From assembly GCF_001429395.1 (NCBI RefSeq), contig NZ_LMJT01000006.1:1-64000 (forward strand): 64,000 bases of DNA. Reading direction: 5' to 3'. Source of the DNA: Allobosea sp. Root381. GTDB taxonomy: Bacteria; Pseudomonadota; Alphaproteobacteria; Rhizobiales; Beijerinckiaceae. Positions within the stretch are counted from its first letter, which is position 1, and every line of letters starts with the position of its first letter. The notes beneath the pieces were generated by a model. The model was not told where the DNA came from and did no database searches. It saw nothing but the letters and a program-made list of their open reading frames with translations. Positions 55,237-59,763 of this stretch are shown one piece after another. A program made the translations under genes and the position numbers.

Positions 55237-55578
55237 ATGATCCAGCAGTTCGAGACGATCCAGAAAGCCTCCAAGGACAACGTCGACGCGGCCCTGAAGG
55301 CCTTCGGCGCGACCTCCAAGGGCGTGCAGACCATCGCCGTCGAGGCGACCGACTATGCCAAGAAGTCCTTCGAGGCCGGCACCGCGACCCTCGAGAAGCT
55401 CGCCGGCGTCAAGACCTTCGACAAGGCGCTCGAGATCCAGGCCGACTACGTCAAGACCGCTTTCGAGGGCGCCGTCGCCCAGGCGACCAAGATGGGCGAG
55501 CTCTACGCTTCGCTCGCCAAGGACGCCTACAAGCCGTTCGAGGGCATCGTCGCCAAGGCCACTCCGGCCGCCAAGTGA
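55237..55578 (+). CDS. Phasin family protein
   Basis: A 113-residue, almost fully helical protein beginning MIQQFETIQKASKDNVDAAL, with KKSFEAGTATLEKLAGVKTFDKALEIQADYVKTAFE in the middle (quoted in parts). This amphipathic pattern matches phasins, which coat polyhydroxyalkanoate granules. A strong promoter and an intrinsic terminator make it a single-gene unit. No PHA synthase is in the window, so a granule role is inferred from the family; some phasin-like proteins have other roles. Confidence 0.88.
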   Translation: MIQQFETIQKASKDNVDAALKAFGATSKGVQTIAVEATDYAKKSFEAGTATLEKLAGVKTFDKALEIQADYVKTAFEGAVAQATKMGELYASLAKDAYKPFEGIVAKATPAAK

Positions 55579-55625
55579 GGCGCGGGCCTGCCGCCTGACG
55601 GCGGGCTCCCCCCTCCGACAGTTCG

Positions 55626-55652
55626 AGCCCGGCCGCAAGGCCGGGCTTTTTT
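55626..55652 (+). terminator. Rho-independent terminator after phasin gene
   Basis: AGCCCGGCC (55626-55634), loop GCAA, GGCCGGGCT (55639-55647) then a T-run to 55652. It lies 47 nt after the phasin stop and 37 nt before the end of the convergent symporter gene. Confidence 0.93.
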
Positions 55653-55689
55653 GTTCGGCTTTGCAGTCCGCGATGCGCCTTCAGCGTGC

Positions 55690-57051
55690 TCAGGCAGCTC
55701 TGGAAGTCGCTTCAGCCGGCTCGTGATGTCTCGCCGCCAGACCGTCGTCGCACGGCGCGATTGCCGCGGTCGCTGCTGCTGTGGTCGAGACGATGGTCAG
55801 CGTGCGCAGCGTATCGCTGAGCGAGTCGACCGCCAGGAACAGGGCGAAGGCCGCCTCGAAGGGCAGGCCGAGATAGCCGCAGAGGATCGCCATCTGCGAT
55901 AGCACCACGATTCCCGACATGCCGGCCGTGGTCAGGCCGATCAGGACCGAGGCGACGCCGACGAGGGCGAGCTCGCCGAGGCCGAGCGGACGGCCGTAGA
56001 GCTGCGCGATGAAGATCGTGCCGCAGACATAGAGCATGATCGGCCCGGCGCGGATCAGGGCGATCTGGAGCGGCACCAGCAATTCGACGACGACGCGGTT
56101 GAACCTCAGCCTCTCGCTCAGCAGATCGATGATCCACGGAATGCAGGCGACGCTGGAGCGGGTGGCGATCGCCATCATCAGGACCGGCTGATGGGCCTTG
56201 AGCGTCGTCCACAGGCTGGTGCGCGAGCGGGACGCGATGACGAAGATCGACAGCGCCATGAAGACGAGCGTCGCGAGCCCCAGCACCATCAGGAAGTCGA
56301 TCATCAGCCGCAGCGGCTCGATGCCGATCGAGGCGGTCTGGTCGGCGATCATCGCGAAGGACGCGAAGGGCAGCAGCACGTTGAACCAGTGGGTCAGGAT
56401 GATGCAGGCGCGATAGACCGTGTCGAGCGCATCGGCGAGGCTGGACGACACCGCCTGCGGGACATGCCCGACCGCCAGGCCGAAGAGCAGACAGAACAGC
56501 AGGACCTTGATCGTGTCGCCGCTGGAAAGCGCGCTGAAGACGTTGCTCGGCACGAGGTCGAGGATGTTGGCGAAGGGGCTCGGCGCCGCGGCGTTCTCGG
56601 CCACGGGCGCAAGCGTCATCTGCAGATCGGTCGCCACCGGGCCCTGGCTGTTGAGAACCTTGCCGAGCTCGATGCGCGACTGCTGGTCGTTGATCTCGCC
56701 GGGTTTGATGGCGAGCGTCAGCGCGCCGGCGATGGCGACCGCGAGGAAGGACACGACGGTGACGGCACCCGCGACCTTCACCAGGTAGGTCGCCGATTGC
56801 GGGTCGCGGACCATCGACCTCATCGAGAAGATGACCGACGAGACGATGAAGGGCAGCACGACCATCTTGAGGAGGTTGAGATAGGTGCTGCCGATCGGCG
56901 CCAGCGCCTTGGAAAAGGCTGGGAAATAGATCCCGCAGAGCACGCCGCCGATGATGAAGGCGACGACCGTCAGCGGCGAACGCAGGATCTTGGAGAGCCT
57001 CGCCCAGGCCGGGATCGGCGCTGCGGCTTGAGTGTCGCTTGCTGCGGTCAT
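55690..57051 (-). CDS. Divergent DAACS (dicarboxylate/amino acid:cation) symporter
   Basis: A 453-residue inner-membrane protein with about eight helices and the overall DAACS sequence (GIYFPAFSKALAPIGSTYLNLLKMVVLPFIVSSV, in parts). The hairpin-1 region reads IATRSSVACIP. Where family members carry NMDGT in helix 7 this protein has ALIRAGPIMLYVCGT, and helix 8 reads AVDSLSDTLRTLTIVSTT. The canonical cation/substrate site is therefore altered. It begins 3 nt after the stop of a periplasmic substrate-binding protein, so they form one transcription unit and perhaps one transport system. Confidence 0.85.
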   Translation of the reverse strand: MTAASDTQAAAPIPAWARLSKILRSPLTVVAFIIGGVLCGIYFPAFSKALAPIGSTYLNLLKMVVLPFIVSSVIFSMRSMVRDPQSATYLVKVAGAVTVVSFLAVAIAGALTLAIKPGEINDQQSRIELGKVLNSQGPVATDLQMTLAPVAENAAAPSPFANILDLVPSNVFSALSSGDTIKVLLFCLLFGLAVGHVPQAVSSSLADALDTVYRACIILTHWFNVLLPFASFAMIADQTASIGIEPLRLMIDFLMVLGLATLVFMALSIFVIASRSRTSLWTTLKAHQPVLMMAIATRSSVACIPWIIDLLSERLRFNRVVVELLVPLQIALIRAGPIMLYVCGTIFIAQLYGRPLGLGELALVGVASVLIGLTTAGMSGIVVLSQMAILCGYLGLPFEAAFALFLAVDSLSDTLRTLTIVSTTAAATAAIAPCDDGLAARHHEPAEATSRAA

Positions 57052-57054
57052 GGC

Positions 57055-57882
57055 CTAGAGACCCGTCGTCTTGCGGTAGCGGGCGAGCAGGTCGTCGCCG
57101 CTCAGCGGCTTGGCCGAATGCGCGAGCTCCAGGAACAGGTCGACGAAGGCGGCGAGCTGCGGCGCGTCGGGCCTGATGCCGATGGCGAGCGTGTCGGTGA
57201 GGTCCGTCAGCGTGACCGAGCGTGCGACAAGCGTCAGCGACGGGTCTTCGACCAGAAGGCGCTTGATCTCGAAATCGTCGCGATAGGCGGCATCGATGTT
57301 GCCGCTGCGGATGGCGTCGATCATCCCGGACCAGGTGTCGAAGCGCTGCAGGCGCGCCTTTGGAAAATTCCGGCCGGCGAAATCCGCAAAGGAGGAATTG
57401 CCGATCACGCCGAGTTCGCCCTCGAAGTTGCGGATGACCTCCGTCATGTCGCGGCCGCGGGCTACCGCGGCGAAGCGGACGCGGTGCGTCAGCAGCCCGT
57501 GGTTGAGCTGCGCGTAAGGGCGGGAATAGCCGATGATGCGGGCGCGCGGCAGCGTCCGGCTCAGCTTGCAGATGGCGAGATCGGCATCGCCCCGCGCCAC
57601 GAGCTGAACCGCTTCGTTGAAACTTGTGGGGCTGCGGTCGAAGGCGGCCTCGACCGCGAGTTCGGATGCGATGGCCTGCGCGAGATCGATGTCCAGGCCT
57701 TCGAGCCGGTTGCTCACGGCGCTGAAGAACGGTCGTGAGTCGAAGTTCGGAACGGTGACCCGGAGGCTGCCGCGCCCGGTGATGTCCTGAAGATCGGCCC
57801 GTTGGTCGACAGGCTGTGCGGCAGCCGGAGCGGCGGCCAGGAGCACCGGCGAGCCCAATATCAATCCGCGCCTCGAAAACAT
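57055..57882 (-). CDS. Family 3 solute-binding protein (amino-acid type)
   Basis: A 275-residue periplasmic binding protein. The signal MFSRRGLILGSPVLLAAAPAAAQ has a twin-arginine-like start. The mature part has GSLRVTVPNFDSRPFFS, LEGLDIDLAQAIASEL and DADLAICKLSRTLPRARIIGYSRPY, the SBP_bac_3 pattern used for polar amino acids or organic acids. No ABC permease or ATPase is adjacent. Instead a DAACS-type symporter follows 3 nt downstream. The ligand is unknown. Confidence 0.88.
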   Translation of the reverse strand: MFSRRGLILGSPVLLAAAPAAAQPVDQRADLQDITGRGSLRVTVPNFDSRPFFSAVSNRLEGLDIDLAQAIASELAVEAAFDRSPTSFNEAVQLVARGDADLAICKLSRTLPRARIIGYSRPYAQLNHGLLTHRVRFAAVARGRDMTEVIRNFEGELGVIGNSSFADFAGRNFPKARLQRFDTWSGMIDAIRSGNIDAAYRDDFEIKRLLVEDPSLTLVARSVTLTDLTDTLAIGIRPDAPQLAAFVDLFLELAHSAKPLSGDDLLARYRKTTGL

Positions 57883-58174
57883 CTTCAGGACTTCCCGGTT
57901 TCGTCGATAATGTTCGGCCGGGAACGCATCGCAGCCGGAAGCGCCCCGGTTTCCCGGCTGGCCGGGAATGCGGCGAGGGGCATCGGCCGCGCGGACCTGC
58001 GACGGCGGCAGTCTGGAGCTGCAACGGTTACCGCTCTGCTACCCGCGCCGATGGTTCCGCTTCGTTAGTTAGCAAATGGTAACGCCGCGGCGGCGCCCGA
58101 CAGGCCAACTGGCGATCCAGGCGCCAGCGGACAGCCTTTCCTTCAAACGATTGAAAAAAAGCTGGAGGAAGCGC
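57883..58174. other. Divergent intergenic region, binding-protein gene/uxaA-like gene
   Basis: The full gap to the uxaA-like ATG is 351 nt; this part precedes the leader ORF. Repeated CCGGGAA/TTCCCGG blocks occur at about 57890-57970 (ACTTCCCGGTTTCG, GGCCGGGAACG, GTTTCCCGGCTGGCCGGGAA), forming nested inverted repeats that could bind a regulator. AACGGTTACCG near 58022 is another small palindrome. No coding sequence is supported. Confidence 0.45.
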
Positions 58175-58267
58175 ATGTCTTGGCGTGCCGCCGCGGCCGT
58201 CGTGGGGGCCCGGAAGCCAGTGGTCACGATCCCATGCTCGACAAAGCGATCCCGCCGCGTACCCTGA
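58175..58267 (+). CDS. Possible 30-aa leader ORF overlapping the uxaA-like start
   Basis: ATG 58175 sits 6 nt after a strong GGAGG site (58164-58168) and reads MSWRAAAAVVGARKPVVTIP, ending at TGA 58267. It overlaps the dehydratase start (58234) in another frame. The dehydratase ATG itself has no clear ribosome-binding site, so translation of this leader may bring ribosomes to it. It is not known to be translated. Confidence 0.35.
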   Translation: MSWRAAAAVVGARKPVVTIPCSTKRSRRVP

Positions 58268-59763
58268 AGCTCAACGCCGCCGACAATGTCGCGGTCGCCG
58301 TCGATCCGATCGATGTGGGCGTGACGGCGGCCGGCGTCACGGCCCTGAAGCGCATTCCGCGCGGGCACAAGATGGCGCTGGCGCCGATCGCGACCGGCGA
58401 GCCCATCCGCAAATTCGGCCAGATCATCGGCTTCGCCACCGTCTACATCCCGCCCGGCGAATGGGTGCACGAGCATAATACCGGCTTCCACGCCTTCGAG
58501 CGCGACTATGCCTTCTGCGCCGAGGCGAAGCCGGAATTCGTGCTGCCGGTCGAGCAGCAGGCCACCTTCCAGGGGTTTAGGCGCAAGGACGGCCGGGCCG
58601 GCACCCGCAATTACGTGGGCATCCTGACCTCGGTGAACTGCTCGGCTTCGGCCGCGCGCTTCATGGCCGAGGAGGTCAAGCGTTCCGGCCTGCTCGACGA
58701 CTACCCTAATGTCGACGGCGTGATTGCCCTGACGCACGGCACCGGCTGCGGCATCGACTACAATGGCGAAAGCTTCGAGGTGCTGAAGCGCACGACCTGG
58801 GGCTATGCCTGCAACCCGAACATGGCGGCGGTCCTTGTCGTCGGCCTGGGCTGCGAGGGTTTTCAGATCAAGCGCATGAAGGACGCCTATGGCGTCGAGG
58901 AAAGCGACGTCTTCCGCACGCTGACGATCCAGGAGACCGGCGGCACCCGAAAGGCGGTCGCGGCCGGGATCGAGGCACTCAAGGTCATGCTGCCGATCGC
59001 CAACCGCGCCACGCGCGAGACGGTGCCGGCCTCCGAGCTGATGCTGGCGCTGCAATGCGGCGGCTCCGACGGCTATTCCGGCATCACCGCCAATCCGGCG
59101 CTCGGCAAGGCGGTCGACCTGCTGGTCGAGCATGGCGGCACGGCGATCCTCTCCGAGACGCCGGAGATCTACGGCGCCGAGCATCTGCTGACGCGCCGCG
59201 CCGCGACCCGCGAGGTCGGCGAGAAGCTCGTCGGCATCATCAAGTGGTGGGAGGACTACACCGCCCGCGCCCGCATGGACATGAACAACAACCCGTCGCC
59301 CGGCAACAAGGCCGGCGGGCTCACGACGATCCTGGAGAAGTCGCTGGGCGCGGCCGCCAAGGGTGGCACCAAGACGCTGGCCGCCGTCTACCACTATGCC
59401 GAGCCGGTGAAGTCGAAGGGCTTCGTCTACATGGACACGCCCGGTTACGATCCGGTCTCGGCGACGGGGCAGGTCGCCGGCGGCGCCAATATCCTCGCCT
59501 TCACCACCGGCCGCGGCTCGGCCTATGGCTGCAAGCCGACGCCCTCGGTCAAGCTCGCCACCAACACGCCGATGTACCTCAAGCAGACCGACGACATGGA
59601 CATCAACTGCGGCGATGTCCTCGACGGCGTGACGCTGGAGCAGAAGGGCCGGGAGATATTCGATTATCTCCTGCGCATCGCTTCGGGCGAAAAGTCAAAG
59701 TCCGAGGAACTGGGCTATGGCGATGCTGAATTCGTGCCGTGGCAGATCGGCGCGACGATGTAG
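58234..59763 (+). CDS. UxaA/GarD-family sugar-acid dehydratase
   Basis: A 509-residue dehydratase of the altronate/galactarate family, which removes water from hexonates or hexarates and needs a divalent metal. The N-terminal SAF-like domain (about 1-95) includes VGVTAAGVTALKRIPRGHKMAL. The main domain starts GFRRKDGRAGTRNYVGILTSVNCS and has HGTGCGIDY, LQCGGSDGYSGITANPALG, ETPEIYGAEHLL and GSAYGCKPTPSVKLATN. These blocks hold the conserved Cys and His residues. Altronate and galactarate activity cannot be told apart. The start MLDKAIPPRTLKL is the first consistent with the family; a TTG at 58180 is also in frame. Confidence 0.88.
   Translation: MLDKAIPPRTLKLNAADNVAVAVDPIDVGVTAAGVTALKRIPRGHKMALAPIATGEPIRKFGQIIGFATVYIPPGEWVHEHNTGFHAFERDYAFCAEAKPEFVLPVEQQATFQGFRRKDGRAGTRNYVGILTSVNCSASAARFMAEEVKRSGLLDDYPNVDGVIALTHGTGCGIDYNGESFEVLKRTTWGYACNPNMAAVLVVGLGCEGFQIKRMKDAYGVEESDVFRTLTIQETGGTRKAVAAGIEALKVMLPIANRATRETVPASELMLALQCGGSDGYSGITANPALGKAVDLLVEHGGTAILSETPEIYGAEHLLTRRAATREVGEKLVGIIKWWEDYTARARMDMNNNPSPGNKAGGLTTILEKSLGAAAKGGTKTLAAVYHYAEPVKSKGFVYMDTPGYDPVSATGQVAGGANILAFTTGRGSAYGCKPTPSVKLATNTPMYLKQTDDMDINCGDVLDGVTLEQKGREIFDYLLRIASGEKSKSEELGYGDAEFVPWQIGATM

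Follow-up and report, generated by a model that had tools for sequence, protein, structure and literature searches.

The window analysed here, a stretch of 64,000 nucleotides (nt) from Allobosea sp. Root381 (contig NZ_LMJT01000006.1, positions 1 to 64,000), carries two neighbouring genes on its minus strand, one for a family 3 solute-binding protein (SBP; P0002) and one, after a gap of 3 nt, for a protein of the SDF/DAACS fold that lacks the NMDGT motif (P0001). Both open reading frames, their strand and the gap agree with a preliminary description of this DNA, made from the sequence alone, in which the two were suggested to form a binding-protein-dependent secondary transporter. We present here the evidence that the two proteins are probably parts of one such system. 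The features of the pair are as follows, with residues in the numbering of the window's own proteins unless GltPh is named or the residue is described as kept or lost, in which case GltPh numbering is used.

57055..57882, minus strand: P0002, family 3 SBP, 275 amino acids (open reading frame and Pfam SBP_bac_3)
57544..57561, minus strand: S108-x-T110-x-x-R113 of P0002, predicted alpha-carboxylate site (conservation in aligned SBPs)
55690..57051, minus strand: P0001, SDF/DAACS-fold protein without NMDGT, 453 amino acids (open reading frame and Pfam SDF)
56137..56163, minus strand: tip of hairpin 1 (HP1), TRSSVACIP, residues 297-305 (sequence comparison)
56041..56055, minus strand: I333-R334-A335-G336-P337, at the place of NMDGT 310-314 of GltPh (alignment to solved chains)
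55780..55827, minus strand: transmembrane helix 8 (TM8), DSLSDTLRTLTIVSTT, residues 409-424; D394, R397 and T398 kept, N401 and D405 lost

The two proteins of the pair

P0001 matches Pfam SDF over residues 30-431 with 195.2 bits (cut-off 27.9), which places it in the SDF/DAACS superfamily (TC 2.A.23). SDF is the only Pfam domain in the protein, and P0001 is the sole SDF match of its genome. When P0001 is aligned to GltPh-type solved homologues, N310-M311-D312-G313-T314 corresponds to I333-R334-A335-G336-P337, in agreement with the preliminary description, which had NMDGT replaced by a sequence containing RAGP. The same description called the helix-8 region altered, and this applies to part of it: in alignments to solved chains N401 has become I420 and D405 has become T424, yet D390 is kept, as are the GltPh substrate residues D394, R397 and T398, which are D413, R416 and T417 of P0001. 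The pattern extends to the relatives collected below. Among 87 related SDFs in first position (SDF1s), N310 is kept in none and arginine stands at 311 in 82, while D394 is found in 69, R397 in 72 and T398 in 79; the second SDFs found in some gene cassettes (SDF2s) have arginine at 311 in 38 of 39. By these column counts, most of these proteins retain the substrate end of the site, and a single positive charge takes the place of the cation end.

Coupling signatures for DAACS proteins are given in the accessible text of Reddy et al. (2025; PMC12668577), namely [S/T]92-93, N310, [M/S]311, [D/E]312 and [D/E]405 for sodium (ExtNa) and [ALIVMF]92, L311 and N405 for protons (ExtH). P0001 has I, R, A and T at positions 310, 311, 312 and 405, which departs from the first signature; R311 and T405 depart from the second, N405 being present in 64 of the 87 relatives. 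Judged by these four positions, P0001 falls in neither the sodium-coupled nor the proton-coupled group. An AlphaFold model of P0001 (predicted local distance difference test score, pLDDT, 82.0; predicted template-modelling score, pTM, 0.79) shows the SLC1 fold with its hairpins and a broken TM7. The break in helix 7 falls at residues 333-334, between helices 319-332 and 335-351, and R334 lies at the break. Fold comparison of the model (VIA) gave Z scores of 43.1 for ASCT2 (8qrs), 42.2 for GltTk and 41.7 for GltPh (6uwl), with EAAT3 within 41.7-43.1.

P0002 matches Pfam SBP_bac_3 with 53.3 bits (cut-off 26.4), and this domain together with a predicted amino-acid carboxylate site identifies it as a member of that family. 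All 20 aligned SBPs (P0002 and 19 relatives) have S108, T110 and R113, and at least 90% of them have D202; we assigned the roles of the three invariant residues from those of LAOBP-type proteins, a pattern that fits binding of an alpha-amino acid. An N-terminal signal sequence (SRRGLIL...AAAQ, Tat-like) was judged by eye. A hydropathy scan gave no stretch of P0002 above the threshold, so the assignment of the export signal rests on this reading of the sequence.

Linkage, fusion and shared history

Loci were gathered by SDF queries from 101 genomes near that of the window and from 385 alphaproteobacterial genomes. Further loci were the four best of 444 plasmid records and the best 80 of 584 relatives from a scan of genome contigs, the query alignment of which contained paired members. 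The 182 distinct SDF rows comprise 54 of NMDGT type, 39 SDF2s, one partial row (L142, left out of the column counts) and 88 non-NMDGT SDF1s, which include P0001 and the divergent L048. Identical rows (L102 = L032, L107 = L033) and SDF open reading frames shorter than 300 amino acids (L126, L129 and the second of L093) were dropped before counting; the short L129 frame has an SBP beside it. Genes were called adjacent when fewer than 600 nt separate the end of the SBP from the SDF domain.

By this definition 74 of the 88 SDF1s are adjacent to an SBP gene, two are fused to an SBP, eight lie one cyclase gene away from one, three are without an SBP and one is at a contig edge (L043). The 73 adjacent pairs outside the window are tight, with 66 within 60 nt and 72 on the same strand. 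The count of SBP neighbours or fusions that had been proposed for this symporter subgroup thus stands at 84 of 88, window included, and because the two genes are adjacent, fused or one gene apart in all of these, their pairing is no chance event. No free SBP was found within 600 nt of any of the 54 NMDGT-type SDFs, whose flanks are mixed (39 short, 15 longer from genome contigs). An apparent SBP beside a canonical SDF in L004/L183 was rejected, as Pfam shows it to be a GluR0-like channel (SBP_bac_3 with Ion_trans_2); in L183 (6529-9257), and also in L004, a gene for a canonical NMDGT transporter is followed by the gene for this ligand-gated channel. With flanks of 1.5 kb, ten alphaproteobacterial SDFs had appeared to lack a partner. 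Longer stretches put an SBP one gene away in eight of them, the other two being L044, without an SBP, and L043 at its contig edge. Linked pairs occur in Pseudomonadota, Chlorobiota, Cyanobacteriota, Bacillota and Ca. Wallbacteria, the phyla other than Pseudomonadota being represented by few, mostly metagenome-assembled, genomes.

The linkage was also examined in 398 evenly sampled genomes of Pseudomonadota, from which the 30 best loci were taken; the sample partly overlaps the first set, L196 and L064 apparently being one and the same pair. None of the eight best loci other than the window has NMDGT, and seven of them have an adjacent SBP, with L199 at a contig edge. No co-oriented SBP was found beside the next 21 loci, which carry NMNGT, NMSGN or NLDGS; two of them gave weak convergent matches. 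Both come from NMSGN-type SDF genes, in L203 and L204, where the convergent SBP-like gene lies at a distance of about 120-140 nt. Close homologues of the symporter are therefore not mostly solitary, with three of 88 alone and seven of the eight best loci in the 398 genomes paired. NQHGQ or NLNRHG stands at TM7 in three divergent SDFs (L048, L198 and L200) that also lie near family 3 SBPs; the order is SDF then SBP in L048 and L200, and the three are possibly a second SBP-linked branch.

Natural fusions were found in one locus of Ca. Wallbacteria (L127), in which two polypeptides encoded in tandem, of 728 and 751 residues, both consist of SBP_bac_3 followed by SDF.

L127, 3523-5709 and 5706-7961: SBP-SDF fusion genes, a hydrophobic helix separating the two domains of each

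The first fusion has a signal peptide (5-23), the SBP (41-233), an extra hydrophobic helix (292-310) and the SDF (328-723). The second has an N-terminal hydrophobic stretch and an interdomain helix at 303-321, and includes four unread residues. By analogy with GltPh, from whose topology we presume a cytoplasmic N-terminus for the SDF, the interdomain helix is what the chain would need to pass from a periplasmic SBP to the cytoplasmic start of the SDF. In an AlphaFold model of the first fusion (pLDDT 84.6, pTM 0.60) this helix spans residues 291-311 at a pLDDT of about 52-68. In a Foldseek comparison the two halves matched SLC1 structures and amino-acid SBPs, AncCDT-1 among the latter.

Trees were built from representatives at less than 75% identity. 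In a quick SDF tree of 94 representatives, 27 NMDGT SDFs form one side of a branch with an approximate likelihood ratio (SH-aLRT) support of 100, and P0001 groups with Mesorhizobium with support of 100. In the SBP tree, 53 SDF-linked SBPs are split by one branch (100/100) from nine other SBPs of the window's genome, these being the ones that align over at least 180 residues among 17 other SBP_bac_3 places in that genome. Distance matrices of the SBPs and SDFs correlate with r of 0.943 over 54 pairs, the highest of 2000 permutations reaching 0.31 (Mantel test). The GluR0-like channel of L004/L183, which had entered the SBP profile by iteration, is among these 54 pairs and was removed before the final SBP tree was made.

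These data bear on two other explanations. The SDF could be an ordinary, self-sufficient symporter, the SBP gene being merely co-regulated with it and serving, for example, as a scavenger or in chemotaxis. The three SDF1s without a detectable SBP and the general knowledge that characterised DAACS carriers function alone would fit such an arrangement. We regard it as quite unlikely in view of the fusion with its topology-correcting helix, the single phylogenetic group formed by the linked SBPs, and a linkage that spans five phyla but is seen with free SBPs in none of the 54 canonical SDFs.

Alternatively, P0002 could serve an ABC permease encoded elsewhere and be unrelated to the SDF. P0002 belongs to SBP family 3, and at least 150 matches to the permease domain BPD_transp_1 are present in its genome (150 of 189 candidates scored). 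None of these lies in the window, the nearest on the contig being at C6:123502, which bears out the earlier remark that there is no ABC permease nearby. ABC genes are found near some relatives: ATPases near the pair in L117, L109 and L115, a Peripla_BP_6 protein in L110, and a PAAT-type permease in six of 94 SDF1 loci (many with 1.5 kb flanks only). All six are in Mesorhizobium and about 3 kb from the pair, and in the one that was examined the permease is part of a methionine-type ABC cluster that encodes an NlpA-type SBP of its own and a NIL-domain ATPase. A search with P0002 alone in 289 alphaproteobacterial genomes (E ≤ 1e-25) gave eight places besides the window, seven of them at SDF loci already known from the search of the 385 genomes and the eighth (L192) a short stretch without an SDF. 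Orthologues of P0002 beside ABC permeases, which the preliminary description had named as a point to check, were thus not seen in seven of eight places, with one undecided. Taken with the position of P0002 among the SDF-linked SBPs and apart from the nine others of its genome, this leaves the assignment to a distant ABC permease highly improbable.

Probable insertion site and neighbouring genes

The pair is patchy in its distribution, as indicated by the search with P0001 of the 101 genomes, which include its own and many of the same genus, where the next best match is only 27% identical (E 5.8e-24). Its surroundings in the window are the following.

55237-55578, plus strand: phasin gene, flanking the pair
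55579..58179, no strand: stretch not found in the genus relatives examined, between the phasin and dehydratase genes
58180-59763, plus strand: dehydratase gene, galactarate/altronate dehydratase-type, flanking the pair

The dehydratase gene was found in all 41 genus genomes searched. Upstream of it, no SBP or SDF was found in any of 29 relatives' loci (up to 1.5 kb upstream examined), and the phasin gene lies within the examined stretch of 12 of them. In seven relatives 136-217 nt separate the end of the phasin match from the dehydratase gene, compared with about 2.6 kb in the window. Because of this empty site in some genus relatives, the pair looks like an insertion between the two genes. 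Base composition was considered as a sign of transfer and gave no signal (G+C 66.2% for the pair and 67.2% for the window).

Many related loci have a richer setting. In 51 of the 65 loci of at least 7 kb, similarity search shows an Asp/Glu-racemase-type gene. Those racemase-type proteins that were submitted to Pfam show PF01177, and the racemases of L071 and L067 pass the NCBIfam cut-off for cysteate racemase (233.1 and 194.3 bits, respectively, against 190). A type VI secretion system (T6SS) cluster, recognized by at least two of TssK, VgrG and TssL, surrounds 38 of the 65, and six of these 38 show no racemase.

T6SS-cluster loci (38: L060, L062, L063, L071, L072, L074-L082, L084-L092, L095, L096, L098-L101, L103-L105, L108, L116, L119, L122, L125, L140): SBP-SDF1-(racemase)-SDF2 between a PAAR-like gene and TssK

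In L071, for example, Pfam and NCBIfam give the order TssH, VgrG, MORN-repeat protein, PAAR-like protein, SBP, SDF1, racemase, SDF2, an unnamed protein, TssK, TssL and TssM. In eight alphaproteobacterial loci (L171-L176, L179 and L180), which we presume to be of marine type from what is usual for such small genomes, a gene for a dCache-guanylate/adenylate cyclase stands between the SBP and the SDF; the cyclase domains were shown in four of the eight and assigned by similarity in the rest. Related cyclases are encoded near the pair in L181, L073 and L102. Such a T6SS locus has been described in the T6SS-b cluster of Paraburkholderia phymatum (Bphy_5989-5992), the gene order of which is given in the accessible text of Hug et al. 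(2021; PMC8356804). There the SBP is labelled an 'amino acid ABC transporter'; the authors state that, to their knowledge, no T6SS with two such symporters had been reported before, and suggest that the symporters may sense dicarboxylates.

These settings raise the possibility that the pair is a sensory module or transceptor, in which a loaded SBP would bind a non-transporting SDF that signals to a partner such as the dCache cyclase or the T6SS control. The loss of the cation sites in the SDF1s would be in keeping with this, as would the cyclase gene between SBP and SDF in eight loci and near the pair in three more, the T6SS clusters around 38 of the 65 larger loci, and the dicarboxylate sensing proposed in the accessible text of Hug et al. 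(2021). On the other hand, most SDF1s retain the substrate residues D394, R397 and T398, and the racemase-type gene present at 51 of the 65 larger loci suggests that the ligand is metabolised. The window itself encodes no detectable relative of the cyclase, TssK, TssL or VgrG, P0001 and P0002 having served as positive controls in that search. Owing to the T6SS and cyclase settings a sensory role remains the main rival to transport, with a small but appreciable chance of being correct.

Proposed mechanism and relation to known systems

In our view, the most consistent interpretation is that P0002 and P0001 are two parts of one binding-protein-dependent secondary transporter, to which we give a probability of roughly two-thirds. 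This interpretation is built on the observed linkage, fusion with a topology-consistent helix, co-inheritance, residue pattern and predicted fold. From these we infer docking, transport, coupling and substrate class in the following form. P0002 would be exported to the periplasm, bind an amino acid there and dock on the outer face of P0001, an elevator carrier of the SLC1/DAACS fold. The ligand would be passed to a site formed by HP1, TM7, HP2 and TM8 (D413, R416 and T417) and carried inwards, with the near-invariant arginine R334 (GltPh position 311) in the broken TM7 replacing the bound cations as a fixed positive charge. Given a fixed charge in place of cations, uptake should be sodium-independent, that is, proton-coupled or by exchange. 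The substrate would be an acidic amino acid or an analogue such as cysteate. The binding protein would set affinity and direction, as described for TRAP systems in the accessible text of PMC5812351.

Several observations weigh against this interpretation. No SBP was found in the examined stretches of L123, L128 and L044, and no racemase gene was found beside the pair in the window. The Mesorhizobium relatives have M in place of R397, and substrates would therefore differ within the group. The docking geometry of SBP and SDF is not readable from the fusion model at its pTM of 0.60, and the matrix correlation of 0.943 partly reflects organismal descent. Finally, a sensory function would fit the neighbouring cyclase genes and T6SS clusters.

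If the two proteins do form a transporter, binding-protein dependence arose on the SLC1 elevator fold too, and a branch with lost cation sites, a fixed arginine and a dedicated SBP would be a natural experiment on the role of ions. Genes annotated as 'cation:dicarboxylase symporter' or 'amino acid ABC transporter' (the latter in PMC8356804), some of them in T6SS clusters, would need to be re-annotated. A literature search, with most subscription journals outside its reach, gave no description of an SBP-dependent DAACS/SDF transporter in the texts accessible to it. The SBP-linked SDF pairs very probably represent a type of uptake system that had not been recognized on the SLC1 fold before. A more far-reaching proposal, for and against which we see the balance as about even, is that they constitute a third class of binding-protein-dependent secondary transporters beside TRAP and TTT, with the SLC1 elevator fold, a fixed arginine for the coupling sodium ions and an SBP that confers affinity and direction. 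In this proposal the betaproteobacterial SDF1 and SDF2, with the cysteate-racemase-like enzyme, may form a heteromer wired to the T6SS, and the marine-type alphaproteobacterial version would be wired to a membrane cyclase.

Sodium coupling by elevator motion has its model system in the glutamate transporters, and those DAACS carriers that have been characterised need no binding protein and take their substrate directly from solution. P0001 resembles the DAACS/SLC1 proteins (GltPh, GltTk, EAAT3 and ASCT2) in its homology over residues 30-431, its predicted fold and its retention of D394, R397 and T398 in TM8. It differs from them in the absence of NMDGT, the loss of N310, D312 and D405, the arginine at 311 and the linked SBP, and its identity to these structures is 20-24% among the structural alignments listed. 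The best sequence match of P0001 among solved chains is an ancestral sodium-uncoupled aspartate transporter (AncInt; PDB entries 9bgy, 9bgz and 9bh0, by title). AncInt, as would the system proposed here, transports independently of sodium in an SDF fold, but according to the accessible text of PMC12668577 it keeps, unlike P0001, the full set of sodium-binding residues; the term 'binding protein' is absent from that text.

TRAP (TC 2.A.56) and TTT (TC 2.A.80) systems are secondary transporters served by a periplasmic SBP, as described in the accessible texts of PMC5812351, PMC10942642 and PMC11574862. The earlier suggestion of a binding-protein-dependent secondary transporter is supported by linkage, fusion and shared history, while its statement that the type is otherwise known from TRAP systems has to be widened, as TRAP is not the only such type. 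The present pair most probably functions in the manner of a TRAP transporter, with another fold as its basis: the membrane parts of TRAP and TTT are DctQM and TctAB, whereas here an SDF accompanies an SBP_bac_3 protein, and Pfam gives SDF only in P0001. P0002 resembles the SBPs of PAAT-type ABC importers in its family and predicted amino-acid site, but its partner is an SDF and no permease or ATPase lies beside it; no BPD_transp_1 match was found in the window, ATPases not having been searched as a family. The P. phymatum genes Bphy_5989-5992 (L062) have the same SBP-SDF-racemase-SDF order, but in its accessible text PMC8356804 does not link the SBP to the symporter. Taken together, P0001 falls within the SDF/DAACS superfamily on sequence and predicted fold, and the pair lies outside the TRAP, TTT and ABC systems.

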